Origin: Synechococcus sp. CC9311
GTDB taxonomy: Bacteria; Cyanobacteriota; Cyanobacteriia; PCC-6307; Cyanobiaceae
Assembly: GCF_000014585.1 (NCBI RefSeq)
Contig: NC_008319.1
Coordinates: 1,736,001-1,800,000 of the forward strand
Length of the DNA stretch: 64,000 bases
Direction of reading: 5' to 3'
Position numbers and translations under genes: made by a program. The first letter of the stretch is position 1, and the number at the start of each line of letters is the position of its first letter. Below the pieces are notes generated by a model. The model searched no databases. It was given only the letters and a program-made list of their open reading frames with translations, and was not told the origin of the DNA. Of the stretch, positions 8,596-16,242 are shown in pieces.

Positions 8596-9135
8596 TCACA
8601 TCCGGCGCGTCACATTTGTACAGGAGAGAGCTGGCTCCACTTCATCGTGGGGACGAGCAATGATATGAGCAGCAACAAGGCCATCTCCAACCCGCTCACA
8701 GGCATCGGCTCCAGCGCGCACGGCAGCGTTCACCGCTCCGGTCTCTCCACGGACCATCACCGTGACGTATCCCCCACCAACGTATTCACGACTGATGAGC
8801 TGCACTTCAGCAGCTTTTGTCATTGCATCAGCGGCCTCAATTGCCGGAACCATGCCTCTGGTCTCAATCATGCCAAGAGCAATACCGAAGGCACGCCTAG
8901 GAGAAGAACTCGCAGAAGCCTGAAGGGAGGAGCCTTTTCCACTGCCACCACTCGTAGGTGTGCCTCTCGAGGAGCTGCGAGCAGATGATCTCGCAGCGGG
9001 AGCAGACGCACTGGCAACAGGCTTCACATCCACAGTTGCCTTTGCTGCTGCTGAGGTGGAGGAAGCAGCTTTGCTAGCTGGTGTTGAAGCAGCGGAATCT
9101 GCGCTGGAACGACGACGGGGTGAAGGAGTGGCCAT
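8596..9135 (-). CDS. csoS1E: Carboxysome shell protein with disordered N-terminal extension (CsoS1E)
   Basis: A 179-residue protein. Residues 1 to about 82 are low-complexity, rich in Ser, Ala, Arg and Thr with PRRR and SSR clusters. They are followed by one BMC domain (about 83-170) nearly identical to CsoS1A, including IALGMIETRG, EVQLISREYVGGGYVTVMV and GDGLVAAHIIARPH. The BMC domain forms hexamers that tile the shell. The basic tail is likely unstructured and could contact cargo, DNA or another shell protein. This matches the CsoS1E paralogue of some marine Synechococcus. It follows csoS4B by 46 bases. Confidence 0.88.
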   Translation of the reverse strand: MATPSPRRRSSADSAASTPASKAASSTSAAAKATVDVKPVASASAPAARSSARSSSRGTPTSGGSGKGSSLQASASSSPRRAFGIALGMIETRGMVPAIEAADAMTKAAEVQLISREYVGGGYVTVMVRGETGAVNAAVRAGADACERVGDGLVAAHIIARPHDEVEPALSCTNVTRRM

Positions 9136-9719: not shown

Positions 9720-11510
9720 TCAGTGAGCCTCCTGAACTACAGGATCGAGTGTGGACCCTACAACTTCTGCTGGAGATGTTTGAGTTCGATCTCGAATCGT
9801 TAAACAGGTATGAAGTAGGCCGTCACGAACGAGATCGGAGTATCGATTGGAGATGGCCGAGTTAACTCTCTGACAATCTGAAATAGCTCGTTCACGCGCA
9901 CCAGGCACAGAGCTTGAATAATCAAAACGGATCACAATGGGAATAGGTAAGTCATGTGAAACGTTTAAGCCTTTAAAGATTTTCACACCAACATCCAAAT
10001 CTGGTGCGCCTTCTTCAACAGTATCTAAGTGAGCAAAATATGTAAGATTTCGCAAATGGACTTCCTTGAAACCGATCCCTACACCTATAAAACGTTCTGC
10101 ATGACCCGCATCGGGATAAGGACCACCGTGAAGATCGGATACGTAATCAATCTGAGAAATATTGTTAGCAATTAAGCGCGTAATCAAGGACACCATTCCC
10201 GAATCCATCGTTCCAGGTGCACCAGATTCAACAGCTTCAGCAATCTGAATCAATGCCTGATCAGGAGACATTGTTGACGTTGCCTTATAAAGATCTTGAG
10301 CTGACACCCATCGGTCTAACTGAGTGGAACTGTCGCTTGCGGGTGGATGAACCCTGATCGCATCAGTATCGGTATCGAGTCCAATCAACAACAAATCAAC
10401 GGAAGCGCCACAACAAAAACTGTTCTCAACAGCTTGTCTGAAATCAAGAAGACGCTGATATCCGGCTGAGGCCGCCAATTTGTCATCACTTCCGTGGGCA
10501 GCGCAGCCCTGATGGCTGGGATCCAAGGAACTGAAATGATAGGTCACAACCTTGAGATAACGGGTGTCTTGAATAGCAGCGTTAGGGATGGACTCTCGAT
10601 AACGCCGGTGTTCTGTTTTGACCCATCGGTTGACTGTATTTTCGACGTCAAATAATGCTCCCGCATGGGAACGACGACGCACGGAGCTGAACGGAATTCG
10701 TAAGGCGTAAGCAATGGAATGAGCCAGCCGACCATCAGCACAAGGCGTCACATCGAGGAGATGGAAGCCACAATCGAGAAGAAAGCCTTCAAAAGTCTGT
10801 GCCGCTTCACTTCCTGAAGAGGCAGCAAGAGGATCGCTCTGAAAAAAGCAATCACTAAAGACACGATGCGACTCAAAAACGCACCACGCGTAGAGCGCTC
10901 TCATATCTAATGGGCGAACCCAGGCTCGCTCAAGGATGTGCTTGGGCAAGTCAAATCCAAGTTCACGCTGGGCTAATAGCTGAGCTTGATCAATAAAGTC
11001 AGCATGATGTTGAAGCGCTGAGATCTTTTGAAGGACAGGAACAATCCTTTCGAAGCGACCTTTAACTTCCAGTTCGTAGGACCGTAAATGGTCATTAGCA
11101 ACCGAGTCCGTTAAAGGATGCAGGCGATTAAAGGATTGACGATTTGATGTTGAGAGGTTGGCTGTTGAACGGTTAGATCTTGAGAGCTTCGAACTACTTG
11201 ACAGTGCACTTGACGACTTTTGATCGCGACGGACCCAGCCGGGCTGTTGGGGCACTGGACGCCTGCTGTCTTGGCTTGTCCTGACGCGACCGGCACCAAG
11301 CGTGCCTTGAGCCAAAACGGCTGCCTTGCCCGATGTCGTGAGTGCACGCCTCCTTTCAAGAGAGGCCGCACGGGCAGAAAGCGGATTCACATCAGCTTGC
11401 TTGGACTCAGAGGCAGGCGAAGATTCGGCTCTCTCTTGTTGCAACTGACGTCGCGTAGGAGCGGAGGGAGACAGAGATCGCCCGCCGCGGGAAGGCACAG
11501 AGCGGACCAT
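9720..11510 (-). CDS. csoSCA: Carboxysomal shell-associated beta-type carbonic anhydrase CsoSCA
   Basis: A 596-residue enzyme (formerly CsoS3) that dehydrates bicarbonate to CO2 inside the carboxysome. The zinc site is visible: CADGR gives the Cys, Asp and Arg, and VVTYHFSSLDPSHQGC gives the His and second Cys with the 11-residue spacing of the family. The first 130 or so residues are basic and disordered. Residues 51-64 (LERRRALTTSGKAA) closely match the first CsoS2 N-repeat LERRKALTTAGKKA, followed in both by a downstream RVR. In CsoS2 this motif binds RuBisCO, so the tail probably recruits CsoSCA to RuBisCO. It starts 7 bases after csoS2. Confidence 0.95.
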   Translation of the reverse strand: MVRSVPSRGGRSLSPSAPTRRQLQQERAESSPASESKQADVNPLSARAASLERRRALTTSGKAAVLAQGTLGAGRVRTSQDSRRPVPQQPGWVRRDQKSSSALSSSSKLSRSNRSTANLSTSNRQSFNRLHPLTDSVANDHLRSYELEVKGRFERIVPVLQKISALQHHADFIDQAQLLAQRELGFDLPKHILERAWVRPLDMRALYAWCVFESHRVFSDCFFQSDPLAASSGSEAAQTFEGFLLDCGFHLLDVTPCADGRLAHSIAYALRIPFSSVRRRSHAGALFDVENTVNRWVKTEHRRYRESIPNAAIQDTRYLKVVTYHFSSLDPSHQGCAAHGSDDKLAASAGYQRLLDFRQAVENSFCCGASVDLLLIGLDTDTDAIRVHPPASDSSTQLDRWVSAQDLYKATSTMSPDQALIQIAEAVESGAPGTMDSGMVSLITRLIANNISQIDYVSDLHGGPYPDAGHAERFIGVGIGFKEVHLRNLTYFAHLDTVEEGAPDLDVGVKIFKGLNVSHDLPIPIVIRFDYSSSVPGARERAISDCQRVNSAISNRYSDLVRDGLLHTCLTIRDRTQTSPAEVVGSTLDPVVQEAH

Positions 11511-11517
11511 TAGTCGA

Positions 11518-13905
11518 TCAGCCCCTTGCTCCGCCAGAGACGGTAATCAGTGAACCCTTTGAGGTGTTACCACTGGAACCTGTCACCCGGCTTTCAGGCC
11601 ATTCGGACTGCTCATTGCGCTTTCGTTCAAATGGGGGCATGGCTCCCATTGCACCAGAGCGGCTTGGATTACGACGGCGAGCCGAAACTCCTTCGGTACC
11701 CGTCACATGATCACCCCGATCCCAGTCATCACCTGTGACTTTGGTGGACGATCCTTCTCCGGTGACCCGGGAAGCAGGTTCTTGAGCAGCTACATCAACC
11801 TCAGGGGTGGTGGGTTGAAATTGACGTTGGCCCTGAAGTTGACTGTGACGCTCTTGAAATTCACGATTATCAAACCTGAATTGCTCCGTGCCGGTGATTT
11901 TGCCACCGGCCAAATCAAAAGGGCCAGTAATACGGCTGCTGTCTTCGTAAGCGGTGCCGGTAACGCCTTTGCTGGTCTCACGTTGTTGCTGCGCGGCACG
12001 CGCAGGTGAAACCACACTGAATCGAGTCCAACTCGACCCTTCTGGTGAGTGGCCATGCGTATCTGTTCCGAGGGGAGCCTCTGCACCACAAGCTGCTGAA
12101 AGCTGATCGGCACCGATGTAAGGAGTACCCGTTACAGCTTCACAAGCTCCACGTTCGCCACCGGTCATCACTCCTCCGATACCTGGTTGAAGTCCAGTCA
12201 TTGGAGCGGCAGGCGTGCCGGGGCGGACCGGCGTCCGTTCGCGAATGGCTTGAACAGCGGAGTTACCGCAATATTGACCAGCTTGCTCAAGGCCTGCGTA
12301 AGGGGTCCCCGTTACAGCCTTACAACTTCCCGGTTCGTCACCAGTGACTTTTTCAGAACGACCGGTGCGCGTGCCGCTCACCACTTGGTTGCGATTGGTG
12401 ATACTGAATCCAACTTTGGCGGCTTCAGGATCTGGCTTGGCTCCACAAAATGAGTTGACCTGTTCTGAACTGATGTATTGATCCCCAGTCACGCGATGAC
12501 AGGATCCGAACTCATCACCCGTAACGCTTGAAGAACGGCCTACCATCGTGCCTGTAACACCTGTTCCTGAAAGGGTTTCAGAAAGACCAACCTTGGCAGC
12601 AGGACGTCCTTCGGAAAGCGGATCAGATCCTAAATATTGATCACCGGTCAACGAGCGGTTCGCACCAGCTTCATCACCAGTCACGCTCGAGGATCGCCCC
12701 ACCATCACCCCACTTACAGGCCGCCCTTGCTGAGTCAGGCTGTGGCCAACTTTGCGAGGTGAGGGGGTCGTTCCACCGCAATAGGCGGCGCTTTGATTGG
12801 CCGAAATATATTCTGTACCCGTCACGCTTTTGCAGGTGCCGGGCTCATCCCCAGTCACTTTCTCAGAGCGACCAACTTCGTTGCCTGTGACTCGATTGCC
12901 ATGGGAAGTGGCAGACACACGAACCTTGGCAGGTGTGGTTGGAGTTGGAGCGCTCTGACAGAAGGTCTGAAAGACCTCTGCACCTAGATACTCAGTACCA
13001 GTGATGGAACGACAAGTGCTGGCTTCGTTGCCTGTCGTCTTGACGGAGCGATTGGCTTGAGTGCCAGTCACAGTTTGGCCGCCGGTGGTTTCTGACTCAC
13101 CCACCTTCCAGTGCGCATCGGCGGCAGCGGCTTGCTTGGATCCGTTTCGATTCGGGCCTGTGGGACGGGTTACTCCAGGGCTTTGCTTGCTGCGAGCTCC
13201 TGATTTCGCGCGAAGCTCACGTACTTGCTGAGCCAGCTCGCGACTGGTGAGGTCAGGATTTGCCTGACGGGCCACTGCAGCAGCGCTTGTGGGTTGTTTG
13301 CCTGCTGTTTTCCCGTGCTTAGACATCGCTTCACGACGGGCTAAGACAAGTGATCTACTTGGATTTTCGATGGCACGACGCTTTGGAGCTTGGCTGCGTC
13401 GGGAGGAGTTTTTGGTCGAAAGATCCATAGATACAGCCTGACGACTCAAACGCGTTGGGGGTTCAGCTGCAGCATTGCCTCCACAACCACAGTCCTTTTT
13501 GCTGACTGCAGGGGCTGTAGTGGATGTCGTTGTCGCTGTTTTACGAGCGACTTCAGCTCTATTTCTATCTTTCGTAGTGTCTGCTGATTTTCCACGACGT
13601 GAAAGGGCTTCTCTACGAGCCAGAACGAGTTCACGACTTGGTTGGCTAACGGGTTTCACCCGAGAGCGATGGGCACCTGATGAAGAGGTGAGTGATTGAT
13701 TTCTTGGTCGCTCAGTCGCGACAGGGGTCGCAGCATGTATGGGAGCTGCTGCAATTGGATCTGCGTTGGTGCGCGTTTTGCGAGCATCGTCGGCCGACCG
13801 AACGCGATTCGCACCTGCTGAAACAGCAACGGATGCCTTTTTGCCAGCAGTAGTGAGGGCCTTACGGCGCTCGAGTGCTAGTTCGCGACTAGAAAGTCTT
13901 GCCAT
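11518..13905 (-). CDS. csoS2: Carboxysome assembly scaffold CsoS2
   Basis: A 795-residue intrinsically disordered scaffold that links RuBisCO to the shell. Four N-terminal repeats of the form SRELALERRxALxxxGKxA begin near residues 6, 90, 183 and 221 (the last degenerate); this class binds RuBisCO. From about 267 to 550 there are five middle repeats built on VTGTxxGRSxxVTGDExGxCxxVTGTxY with paired cysteines. The C-terminal region has further VTG motifs and ends in the conserved ITVSGGARG shell-binding peptide. A Cys-Gly cluster DCGCGG lies at 138-143. No clear slippery heptamer with a downstream stop was found, so only the full-length form is expected. It starts 99 bases downstream of cbbS, past a terminator-like hairpin. 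Confidence 0.96.
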   Translation of the reverse strand: MARLSSRELALERRKALTTAGKKASVAVSAGANRVRSADDARKTRTNADPIAAAPIHAATPVATERPRNQSLTSSSGAHRSRVKPVSQPSRELVLARREALSRRGKSADTTKDRNRAEVARKTATTTSTTAPAVSKKDCGCGGNAAAEPPTRLSRQAVSMDLSTKNSSRRSQAPKRRAIENPSRSLVLARREAMSKHGKTAGKQPTSAAAVARQANPDLTSRELAQQVRELRAKSGARSKQSPGVTRPTGPNRNGSKQAAAADAHWKVGESETTGGQTVTGTQANRSVKTTGNEASTCRSITGTEYLGAEVFQTFCQSAPTPTTPAKVRVSATSHGNRVTGNEVGRSEKVTGDEPGTCKSVTGTEYISANQSAAYCGGTTPSPRKVGHSLTQQGRPVSGVMVGRSSSVTGDEAGANRSLTGDQYLGSDPLSEGRPAAKVGLSETLSGTGVTGTMVGRSSSVTGDEFGSCHRVTGDQYISSEQVNSFCGAKPDPEAAKVGFSITNRNQVVSGTRTGRSEKVTGDEPGSCKAVTGTPYAGLEQAGQYCGNSAVQAIRERTPVRPGTPAAPMTGLQPGIGGVMTGGERGACEAVTGTPYIGADQLSAACGAEAPLGTDTHGHSPEGSSWTRFSVVSPARAAQQQRETSKGVTGTAYEDSSRITGPFDLAGGKITGTEQFRFDNREFQERHSQLQGQRQFQPTTPEVDVAAQEPASRVTGEGSSTKVTGDDWDRGDHVTGTEGVSARRRNPSRSGAMGAMPPFERKRNEQSEWPESRVTGSSGNTSKGSLITVSGGARG

Positions 13906-14004: not shown

Positions 14005-14346
14005 TCAGCGTCCTTCGAAAACCACGAAACAGGCACCTTGGCCTTGGGTGTATGCGTCGTAGCCGACCATGCGCACGTGATGGTCGGGGTATGCGCGATG
14101 GCAGGCCTCGAGTTCACTCACGACAACGTTGAGATCCTTCTCACCGAAAAACGGGAGCTTCCAATAGGACCAATAAGAGGCCATGGAATTGGAAGGATGG
14201 ACGTGCTCAATGAGCGGGCTCCAACCTTGGGCAATGATGTAAGCGATCTGGTCATAGATCTCGTCCTGGGTCATCGGCGGAAGAAAGCCGAATGTCTCCA
14301 GGGTGGCGACTGTTTGGTAGTCACCCACGGTGCTCTGAAAAGGCAT
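14005..14346 (-). CDS. cbbS: Ribulose bisphosphate carboxylase small subunit (form IA)
   Basis: A 113-residue small subunit that caps the L8S8 RuBisCO. It contains the usual PPMTQDEIYDQIAYII helix, the YWSYWKLPFFGE segment and the C-terminal QGACFVVFEGR. An open frame starts three codons earlier (14355), but the family starts MPFQSTVGDYQT, which fixes ATG 14346. It follows cbbL by 103 bases; that spacer contains a stem-loop. The protein is cargo of the alpha-carboxysome. Confidence 0.97.
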   Translation of the reverse strand: MPFQSTVGDYQTVATLETFGFLPPMTQDEIYDQIAYIIAQGWSPLIEHVHPSNSMASYWSYWKLPFFGEKDLNVVVSELEACHRAYPDHHVRMVGYDAYTQGQGACFVVFEGR

Positions 14347-14449: not shown

Positions 14450-15862
14450 TCACTGAACGTCGAGTTTGTCGACGGTGTCGAATTCGAACTTGATCTCCTT
14501 CCAGGTCTCGAGAGCGATCGCCAGCTCAGGGCTGTGCTTACCGGCTTCCATAAGGATGTCGCGGCTTTCCTTCTCGATTTCACGACCGGCGTTGCGTGCC
14601 TTGACGCAGGCCTCGAGGGCCACACGGTTGGCAGCAGCACCAGCTGCGGAACCCCAGGGGTGACCGTGGGTACCACCACCGAACTGGAGAACGGAGTCAT
14701 CTCCGAAGATGGCAACCAGTGCGGGCATATGCCACACGTGGATACCGCCGGAAGCAACGGCGAAGACGCCAGGCATGGAACCCCAGTCCTGATCGAAGAA
14801 GTTGCCGCGGCTGCGATCTTCAGGAACGAAGGATTCGCGGAGTTGGTCGATATAGCCGAGGGTGGTCTGACGATCACCTTCCAGCTTGCCCACCACGGTG
14901 CCGGTGTGGAGTTGGTCACCACCTGACAAACGCAGGCACTTGGCGAGGACGCGGAAGTGAATACCGTGCTTGGGATGACGGTCAATCACAGCGTGCATCG
15001 CACGGTGAATGTGCAGCAACATGCCGTTCTTGCGGCACCACTTCGACAAACCAGTGTTAGCTGTAAAGCCACCGGTGATGAAGTCGTGCATGATGATCGG
15101 CTGATTGAGTTCCTTGGCGAACTCAGCACGCTCATACATCTCTTCAGGAGTGTTCGCGGTCACGTTGAGGTAGTGACCCTTTCGCTCTCCCGTTTCCTGT
15201 TCGGCCAGCTTGATGGCTTCTGCAACAAATTCGAAGCGGTTCTGCCAACGCTGGAACGGCTGGGAATTGATGTTCTCGTCGTCTTTGGTGAAGTCCAGAC
15301 CGCCACGGAGGCATTCATAGACAACACGGCCGTAGTTCTTACCGCTTAAGCCAAGCTTTGGCTTAATGGTGCAACCCAGAAGAGGGCGGCCGTACTTATT
15401 CATACGGTCACGCTCAACGGCAATACCGTTTGGCGGTCCAGCGCAGCACTTGATAAATGCAATCGGGAAGCGAATGTCTTCCAGACGGAGATGACGCAGT
15501 GCTTTGAAACCAAACACGTTGCCGACCAATGAGGTCAGAACGTTAGTGATTGAACCCTCTTCGAACAGGTCGAGGGGGTAAGCGATGAAGGCATAGAACG
15601 ACTCCTTGTCACCAGGGACGTCTTCGATGCGATAGCAGCGGCCTTTGTAGAAGTCGAGGTCGGTGAGGAGCTCGGACCACACAGTGGACCAGGTACCAGT
15701 TGAAGATTCAGCGGCAACAGCAGCTGCAACTTCTTCTTTGGGAACACCTTCTTGGCCGGTGCACTTGAAGCAGGCCAGCAGGTCGGTGTCGAGGGGAACG
15801 TAATCGGGAGTCCAGTAAGTGTCTCTGTACTCCTTGACCCCAGCGTCGTACTTCTTGCTCAT
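14450..15862 (-). CDS. cbbL: Ribulose bisphosphate carboxylase large subunit (form IA)
   Basis: A 470-residue catalytic subunit that fixes CO2 onto ribulose-1,5-bisphosphate. Active-site elements are intact: [15 protein letters not shown] with the catalytic Lys, [10 protein letters not shown] with the carbamylated Lys and metal ligands, and loop 6 [11 protein letters not shown]. The N-terminus [17 protein letters not shown] is that of form IA enzymes packaged in alpha-carboxysomes. It is second in the cso operon, 68 bases after csoS1A. Confidence 0.98.
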
Positions 15863-15930: not shown

Positions 15931-16242
15931 TCAGTCCTTTTGTCCGAGGAAATTGCCGTTGCCGAGTGCTGGCTCAACTTCGCGATGAGGGCGAGCAATG
16001 ATGTGCGCCGCGACGAGGCCGTCGCCGACACGTTCGCAAGCATCTGCACCTGCACGCACTGCAGCGTTCACAGCACCTGTTTCGCCACGGACCAAAACTG
16101 TGACGTAGCCACCGCCGACGAATTCACGACCAATCAGGCGCACTTCAGCAGCCTTGGTCATTGCATCAGCTGCTTCGATCGCTGGGACCAGGCCGCGTGT
16201 CTCGATCATGCCGAGAGCGATACCCATGGTTTCGTTAGCCAT
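15931..16242 (-). CDS. csoS1A: Major carboxysome shell hexamer protein CsoS1A
   Basis: A 103-residue single-BMC-domain protein whose hexamers tile the facets of the alpha-carboxysome shell; the central pore passes bicarbonate and RuBP. The family core is complete (IALGMIETRGLVPAIEAADAMTKAAEV, GGYVTVLVRGETGAVNAAVRAGADAC, VAAHIIARPH). It is the first gene of the cso operon. Its BMC domain is nearly the same as that of csoS1E in this window, showing recent duplication or concerted evolution. Confidence 0.97.
   Translation of the reverse strand: MANETMGIALGMIETRGLVPAIEAADAMTKAAEVRLIGREFVGGGYVTVLVRGETGAVNAAVRAGADACERVGDGLVAAHIIARPHREVEPALGNGNFLGQKD

Follow-up and report, generated by a model that had tools for sequence, protein, structure and literature searches.

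In this study, the gene csoSCA (9720..11510, minus strand) was analysed in a stretch of 64,000 nucleotides from Synechococcus sp. CC9311, referred to below as the window. Its product, the carboxysomal beta-carbonic anhydrase CsoSCA (596 aa, ATG start), carries in its N-terminal tail a segment (residues 44-84; 11259..11381, minus strand) that genome search, alignments, profiles and trees identified as a copy of repeat N1 of CsoS2, the carboxysome scaffold encoded by the adjacent gene. The homology, the N1 source, selection on the copy and the conservation of the Rubisco site were demonstrated in this analysis. Taken as a whole, the data are best explained, with a high degree of confidence in our view, by capture of N1 by the CsoSCA tail and its retention for CsoS2-style docking on Rubisco.

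Results

The CsoSCA protein matched entry 8thm of the PDB (E 1e-215), and the Pfam CsoSCA_N, catalytic and C domains (PF20687, PF20686 and PF08936) all lay inside residues 131-587; residues 1-130 were therefore taken as the N-terminal tail. The presence of the three domains, together with the position of the gene beside csoS2 and the Rubisco genes, identified the protein as a carboxysomal CsoSCA. Pattern and profile searches located in the tail a putative Rubisco-binding core, R47-x5-R53R54-x6-G61K62 (11325..11372, minus strand), which is an exact instance of the CsoS2 Rubisco-binding motif printed as RxxxxxRRxxxxxxGK (Blikstad et al., PMC10614612). An earlier note on this DNA had aligned CsoSCA residues 51-64 (LERRRALTTSGKAA) with CsoS2 repeat 1 (LERRKALTTAGKKA) and had pointed to an RVR and a D-x-R behind the match in both proteins. 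The likeness is real: 11 of the 14 positions are identical, and the RVR...D-x-R box of CsoSCA (GRVRTSQDSRR, residues 74-84; 11259..11291, minus strand) corresponds to NRVRSADDARK in CsoS2. The best ungapped 14-residue match between the tail and the CsoS2 N-domain had 11 identities, whereas 300 shuffled tails yielded no more than 9, and the local alignment score of the tail against CsoS2 (102) was equalled in 0 of 500 shuffles. Moreover, a six-frame search of the genome itself (one contig, 2,606,748 bp) with CsoSCA reached csoS2 through residues 37-85 (E 3.2e-5, 50% identity). An N1 profile found only csoS2 (in two places) and csoSCA in the same genome, with no further protein bearing an N1-type repeat up to E 10.

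The comparison was extended to a family search of 271 genomes, 262 of which had a CsoSCA match; tails were read in 151 genomes in three batches (121, 12 and 18). A further set comprised the best 80 of 370 named loci by likeness to the window protein, a choice that favours motif-bearing Synechococcus and in which some loci are the same contigs as family genomes. A hidden Markov model (HMM) of 169 distinct CsoS2 repeats, with zero CsoSCA sequences included, was run on 201 tails, namely the 121 family tails of the first batch and the 80 named ones. All 47 motif tails scored 10.8-27.2 bits (19.4 for the window tail), the best of the other 154 reached 2.9, and reversed sequences reached at most 4.9. 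Furthermore, 28 CsoSCA segments aligned with 28 N1 segments in hhalign over 39 columns (probability 98.1%, E 1.1e-13). In a comparison with more repeats, the profile score against N1 was 64.0, compared with 20.5 for the best of 20 column-shuffled controls.

Absence of the motif from closely related CsoSCA proteins would, according to the earlier note, have spoken against its reading. Within the genus of the window (g1), however, 22 of 24 genomes carry the motif, as do 18 of 19 genomes in a second genus (g20), that is, 40 of the 43 genomes of the two genera, which are termed marine Synechococcus here on the strength of contigs and tails shared with titled Synechococcus records. The pattern R-x5-RR-x6-GK occurred in these 40 of 43 real tails and in 7 of 17,200 shuffles of the same 43 tails; the shuffled controls preserve composition only. 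None of the 108 CsoSCA tails read in other family members contained the motif. Among these were seven genomes of genus g22 with tails of 39-43 aa, and 58 further g22 genomes were judged by frame length alone (509-510 aa, like the seven). The best 80 of 370 named loci include 20 records titled Synechococcus and 53 titled Prochlorococcus. Of the former, 19 carry the motif, the lone exception (L225) having a tail of the g34 type described below; of the latter, none do. Start codons had been set by rule; scanning the whole upstream open frame altered motif presence in 0 of 231 tails.

The earlier note had also suggested possible copying from csoS2, which is well supported: the CsoSCA segments group with N1, and N1 is the best repeat by profile E-value. 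With a larger repeat set, these E-values were 8e-15 for N1, 4e-7 for N2, 1e-5 for N3 and 0.83 (no match) for N4. In a tree of 143 repeats, whose few columns make finer placement unsafe, the 14 CsoSCA rows formed one group (support 99) that joined N1 to the exclusion of N2 and N3 (support 100). Tests of repeat identity, conversion and constraint were made on the 28 of 40 motif genomes with full flanks; in 27 of these the closest repeat to the CsoSCA copy was N1, and in one (G093) N1 and N2 tied. On a fold tree of 133 rows, the motif label required 3 changes, compared with a mean of 34.7 in shuffles, and one gain followed by two losses is the simplest reading. Approximately unbiased (AU) tests on 64 of the 133 rows did not reject a single clade of all 43 marine rows (p 0.22). 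A motif-only clade, that is, monophyly without losses, was rejected (p 7e-5), also with only G232 and G244 held outside (p 0.003). In the 133-row tree, the motif-less G076, a long branch from another genus, stood beside the marine rows (support 82). These trees were of a quick type and comprised the first two batches of tails.

These results also bear on convergence, in which the CsoSCA tail would have gained a CsoS2-like motif independently, as the sole pattern fitting the Rubisco site. Disordered tails can acquire short motifs de novo, and Halothiobacillus neapolitanus arrived at the same Rubisco site with another motif. However, the likeness extends over about 40 residues including the linker and the RVR tract, it is specific to N1 and not N2 or N3, and one gain is enough on the tree; convergence is therefore considered very unlikely.

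The identity of the CsoSCA copy to N1 was not higher within genomes than between them (0.634 and 0.642 for amino acids, 0.558 and 0.571 for nucleotides), and the fraction of permutations reaching the observed within-genome value was 0.97 and 0.99, respectively. Because the copies are no more alike within than between genomes, the copy event is judged to be old and shows no later exchange; taken with the trees, the repeat comparisons indicate a single ancient copying of N1. Conversion of one gene by the other, recently or repeatedly, so as to keep the copies alike, might be expected of two genes that adjoin at a distance of 7 bp, and in G093 (L061) an unusual V precedes GK in both the CsoSCA copy and N1. 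Nevertheless, conversion was tested in the 28 genomes and not seen, and we regard this explanation as having next to no likelihood.

Three genomes of the marine clade (G086, G232 and G244) have no motif. In G232 and G244 the loss is clean, PTAPTRRQL running directly into QQPAW[VI]RR; G086 lacks the core but retains GRVR. The closest motif-bearing genome to G232 and G244 on the tree, L040, has TGCAG at both ends of the missing stretch, which suggests that the stretch may have been lost by deletion between short repeats. The L154 tail retains RELALERR, the same as N1. In the L061 (G093) tail, part of the head is duplicated (RNGRPQAPSRRQLRQNQDRS) and the duplicate stands in place of the QQPGWVRR box, which we regard as modular shuffling within the tail.

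The ratio of nonsynonymous to synonymous polymorphism (pN/pS) was 0.25 in the N1-like core, which was gap-free; the two long spacers gave 0.92 and 0.74, and the fold gave 0.19. The RVR box (0.41), the QQPGWVRR box (0.35; residues 88-95; 11226..11249, minus strand), a short linker (0.67) and the head (0.39) were intermediate. The lowest value in the tail, 0.21, was that of a PTAP-type box (residues 13-24, LSPSAPTRRQLQ; 11439..11474, minus strand). These values indicate that the N1 copy is maintained by purifying selection. The invariance of R, RR and GK is built in, the rows having been picked by pattern; L51, A56, L57, A64, R75 and R77, which lie outside the selecting pattern, were also invariant in 28/28, and the spacing from GK to xRxR was 11 residues in all 28. 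The conserved QQPGWVRR element was retained in the three genomes without the N1 copy. AlphaFold2 predicted an unstructured tail save for helices at residues 20-28 and 45-58, the latter being the motif, both at low confidence (ten-residue means of 39-50; pLDDT about 40 for the motif helix).

The form P(x)AP[TS]R of the PTAP-type box was present in 43/43 marine Synechococcus tails, including the three without the N1 copy. The box of the window reads PSAPTRR, one residue from PTAPx[RK]R; the strict form occurred in 75 of 133 tails and P[TSR]AP in 125 of 133. According to PMC10614612, 87% of cyanobacterial CsoSCA contain PTAPx[RK]R, which is suggested there as a possible binding motif. The older box might itself do the docking on Rubisco and the N1 copy be a dispensable helper of avidity, a proposal that is partly compatible with the explanation preferred here. 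Its presence in every marine tail, its tail-leading constraint and the published suggestion all favour such a role, yet constraint on the N1 copy is almost as strong, the copy has no gaps and only two losses are seen. On balance, docking by the PTAP-type box with a dispensable N1 copy is possible and rather doubtful.

The Rubisco side of the proposed contact was examined in the loci whose CbbL or CbbS could be read. D98 and S344 of CbbL were conserved in 116/116 loci with a readable CbbL, F345 in 112 and G361 in 109, and D100 and Y102 of CbbS (Y102 = Y96 of H. neapolitanus) in 120/120. CbbL position 71, which corresponds to Y72 of H. neapolitanus, was F in 115/116 and Y in 1/116. With CbbS Y102 kept and F at CbbL 71, both aromatic residues that sandwich the arginine in the CsoS2 mode are in place, whereas the tyrosine hydroxyl used by an arginine of H. 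neapolitanus CsoSCA is gone. Y72 is a contact of both the CsoS2 and the CsoSCA peptides, and F occupies it here although PMC10614612 calls Y72 conserved in alpha-carboxysome Rubisco. A PDB search with a profile of Synechococcus CsoSCA segments ranked CsoS2 first and also reached the Rubisco-fused peptide of 6uew (residues 473-496, NRSSGRDLARARREALSQQGKAAV), non-significantly (E 0.48).

In the window, csoS2 (795 aa, PF12288; 11518..13905, minus strand) encodes the source-type segment, N1 plus linker, in residues 1-46 (13768..13905, minus strand; core repeat, residues 5-24, at 13893-13834). The repeat HMM scan placed N2 at residues 89-108 (13582..13641, minus strand) and N3 at residues 182-201 (13303..13362, minus strand). 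Both csoS2 (13905-11518) and csoSCA (11510-9720) lie on the minus strand, downstream of cbbL (form IA Rubisco large subunit; 14450..15862, minus strand) and cbbS (Rubisco small subunit; 14005..14346, minus strand; start set at the ATG aligning with residue 1 of PDB 7yyo_B). Apparent csoS2-csoSCA fusions, with frames of about 1,320 aa, were rejected, as translation showed a stop codon between the genes. In L088, L096, L099, L104, L107, L110, L111, L115, L124, L130, L131, L139 and L141-L143 the two genes share a frame, with one stop and 3-6 nt between them; read-through there would give a CsoS2-CsoSCA fusion, and the frame sharing is probably chance. The protein encoded at 8596-9135, which we presume to be CsoS1E, has a long low-complexity Ser/Ala/Arg-rich N-terminal extension and a second half resembling, by eye, the shell protein at 15931-16242; no N1-type repeat was found in it by the N1 profile up to E 10.

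Other genera showed other tail elements. The g34 tails (L090, L106, L116, L144, L145, L148 and L232-L239) have a conserved SKVLRQRELA at the position of the N1 copy, with [AS]R or a similar pair two residues further along, and with the strict form in 12 of 14 tails and near forms in the other two. This element is a candidate lineage-specific binding motif, its relation to CsoS2 being unproven: the best hhalign match was 13% (against N4, 9 columns), with a score of 16.5, compared with a maximum of 14.0 for 20 column-shuffled controls. An RGTRAR/RGTAAR element was matched in 18 tails, in g18 (L101, L109, L113-L115, L120, L123, L147, L244 and L245), in L098 (g33) and in some g14 loci; hhalign gave no relation of RGTRARA (g18/g33) to a CsoS2 repeat.

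Discussion

The mechanism proposed here is as follows. An ancestor of the marine Synechococcus genera g1 and g20 would have acquired, in frame within the part of csoSCA that encodes the disordered tail, a single N1 copy made up of the helical core, GK and the linker with RVR; the copy would have entered between the older PTAP-type box and the fold. Selection would keep the copy for giving CsoSCA the docking mode of CsoS2 on assembled form IA Rubisco, in which a basic helix next to CbbS would span the CbbL2 interface and an arginine would be sandwiched by a pair of aromatic side chains. The CsoSCA oligomer would thereby be drawn into the Rubisco-CsoS2 condensate and hence into the carboxysome. 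CsoSCA is a hexamer (PMC11086599), so that even a single repeat in each chain would provide multivalency. CsoSCA and CsoS2 very probably hold Rubisco in the same way; we infer the binding of the segment, its geometry and its role in encapsulation from the fit to the published description of 6uew, the conserved Rubisco contacts and the purifying selection.

Compared with CsoS2, the CsoSCA copy shares the core pattern, GK, the downstream RVR/D-x-R tract and common descent with N1, and possibly the helix, which is predicted at low confidence. It differs in being a single copy, whereas most CsoS2 have 3 strict repeats, and in sitting on an enzyme and not on a scaffold. Relative to N1, the second K after GK is missing, the EL after the first R is absent except in L154, and the distance from GK to xRxR is 11 residues (28/28), against 8-10 in N1. 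In H. neapolitanus, the CsoSCA tail binds to the same site on Rubisco as CsoS2, with which it competes, and encapsulation depends on this tail (PMC10614612). Its peptide (PRLDLIEQA) is alike in lying in a disordered tail of the same protein, in purpose and very probably in the Rubisco site, and unlike in its motif and, as it would appear, in its binding mode; its R23 hydrogen-bonds CbbL Y72 (PMC10614612), a position that is F here. By eye, no PRLDLIEQA element is present in the window CsoSCA tail. The EPYC1-type motif of pyrenoid proteins (PMC10614612) offers a further parallel, a scaffold and other organelle proteins having a common Rubisco motif, with a different sequence, Rubisco site and lineage.

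Several points weigh against docking of the CsoS2 type. The H. neapolitanus peptide binds the same site otherwise, so a CsoS2-like motif would not be required for function, and 3 of the 43 clade genomes live without the copy, which is not indispensable there. The AlphaFold2 motif helix is of low confidence (blocks 39-43), CbbL 361 is not G in 7/116 and 345 is not F in 4/116, and the 6uew match, non-significant by itself, ranks below the unrelated 6fsq (E 0.12). Binding of a motif-bearing CsoSCA to Rubisco is moreover something that we infer from sequence. The copy might also be real and its partner a shell protein of the CsoS1 family or CsoS2, anchoring the anhydrase at the shell: H. neapolitanus CsoSCA contacts CsoS1A at the shell (PMC12646314), and peptides of the CsoS2 N-region gave signals with CsoS1 proteins in an array (PMC4499774), which likewise counts against Rubisco as the partner. 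Nevertheless, the CsoS2 repeat structure was solved on Rubisco (6uew), and in biolayer interferometry (BLI) binding of H. neapolitanus CsoSCA was detected neither to shell proteins nor to CsoS2B (both from PMC10614612). The Rubisco contact positions are also conserved here, and a shell partner is judged improbable.

A shared CsoS2 motif was noted in 2023 in 'a handful' of Prochlorococcus CsoSCA, with an evolutionary relationship suggested (Blikstad et al., PMC10614612). The observation in the cyanobacterial tail is the same; here the motif is found in nearly all marine Synechococcus and in none of the Prochlorococcus-titled records among the best 80 of 370, which is at odds with the printed attribution. 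A difference in naming could possibly explain the discrepancy, NCBI placing Parasynechococcus marenigrum WH 8102 in Prochlorococcaceae and Synechococcus sp. CC9311 in Synechococcaceae. The same source states that no motif is common to CsoSCA tails, proteobacterial ones included; the sample here is the cyanobacterial family, and the proteobacterial statement is that of PMC10614612. The motif in marine Synechococcus CsoSCA, N1 as its source and the RVR extension were not mentioned in the excerpts of PMC11086599, PMC12646314, PMC12918739, PMC13370225, PMC11365436, PMC13249358 and PMC4499774, a search that stood outside most subscription papers and all preprints. Within that literature, the clade-wide distribution, the N1 source, the extended segment and the single gain were not seen in print. 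The finding thus extends a published remark: across a clade, an enzyme has captured a repeat from its scaffold, with the origin supported and the function probable.

We tentatively suggest, at less than even odds, that the marine Synechococcus CsoSCA tail is bivalent, combining the ancestral PTAP-type box with the captured CsoS2 repeat, and that the anhydrase acts as a second cross-linking scaffold. If so, the hexamer would carry up to twelve Rubisco stickers and would not be passive cargo. On this view, motifs would turn over in picocyanobacterial CsoSCA tails, in which genera install different second elements between box and fold, namely the N1 copy, SKVLRQRELA or RGTRARA.

In conclusion, the solved case of anhydrase recruitment to alpha-carboxysomes is proteobacterial. 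In marine Synechococcus, which are ocean primary producers, almost the entire clade bears a motif whose partner and structure have been solved in another protein, and the natural losses serve as controls that make the question of recruitment in cyanobacterial alpha-carboxysomes directly testable. The motif may also provide a small ready-made tag for loading enzymes into synthetic alpha-carboxysomes. The CsoSCA of marine Synechococcus represents a clean bacterial case in which the disordered tail of an enzyme acquired a binding motif copied from its own scaffold.
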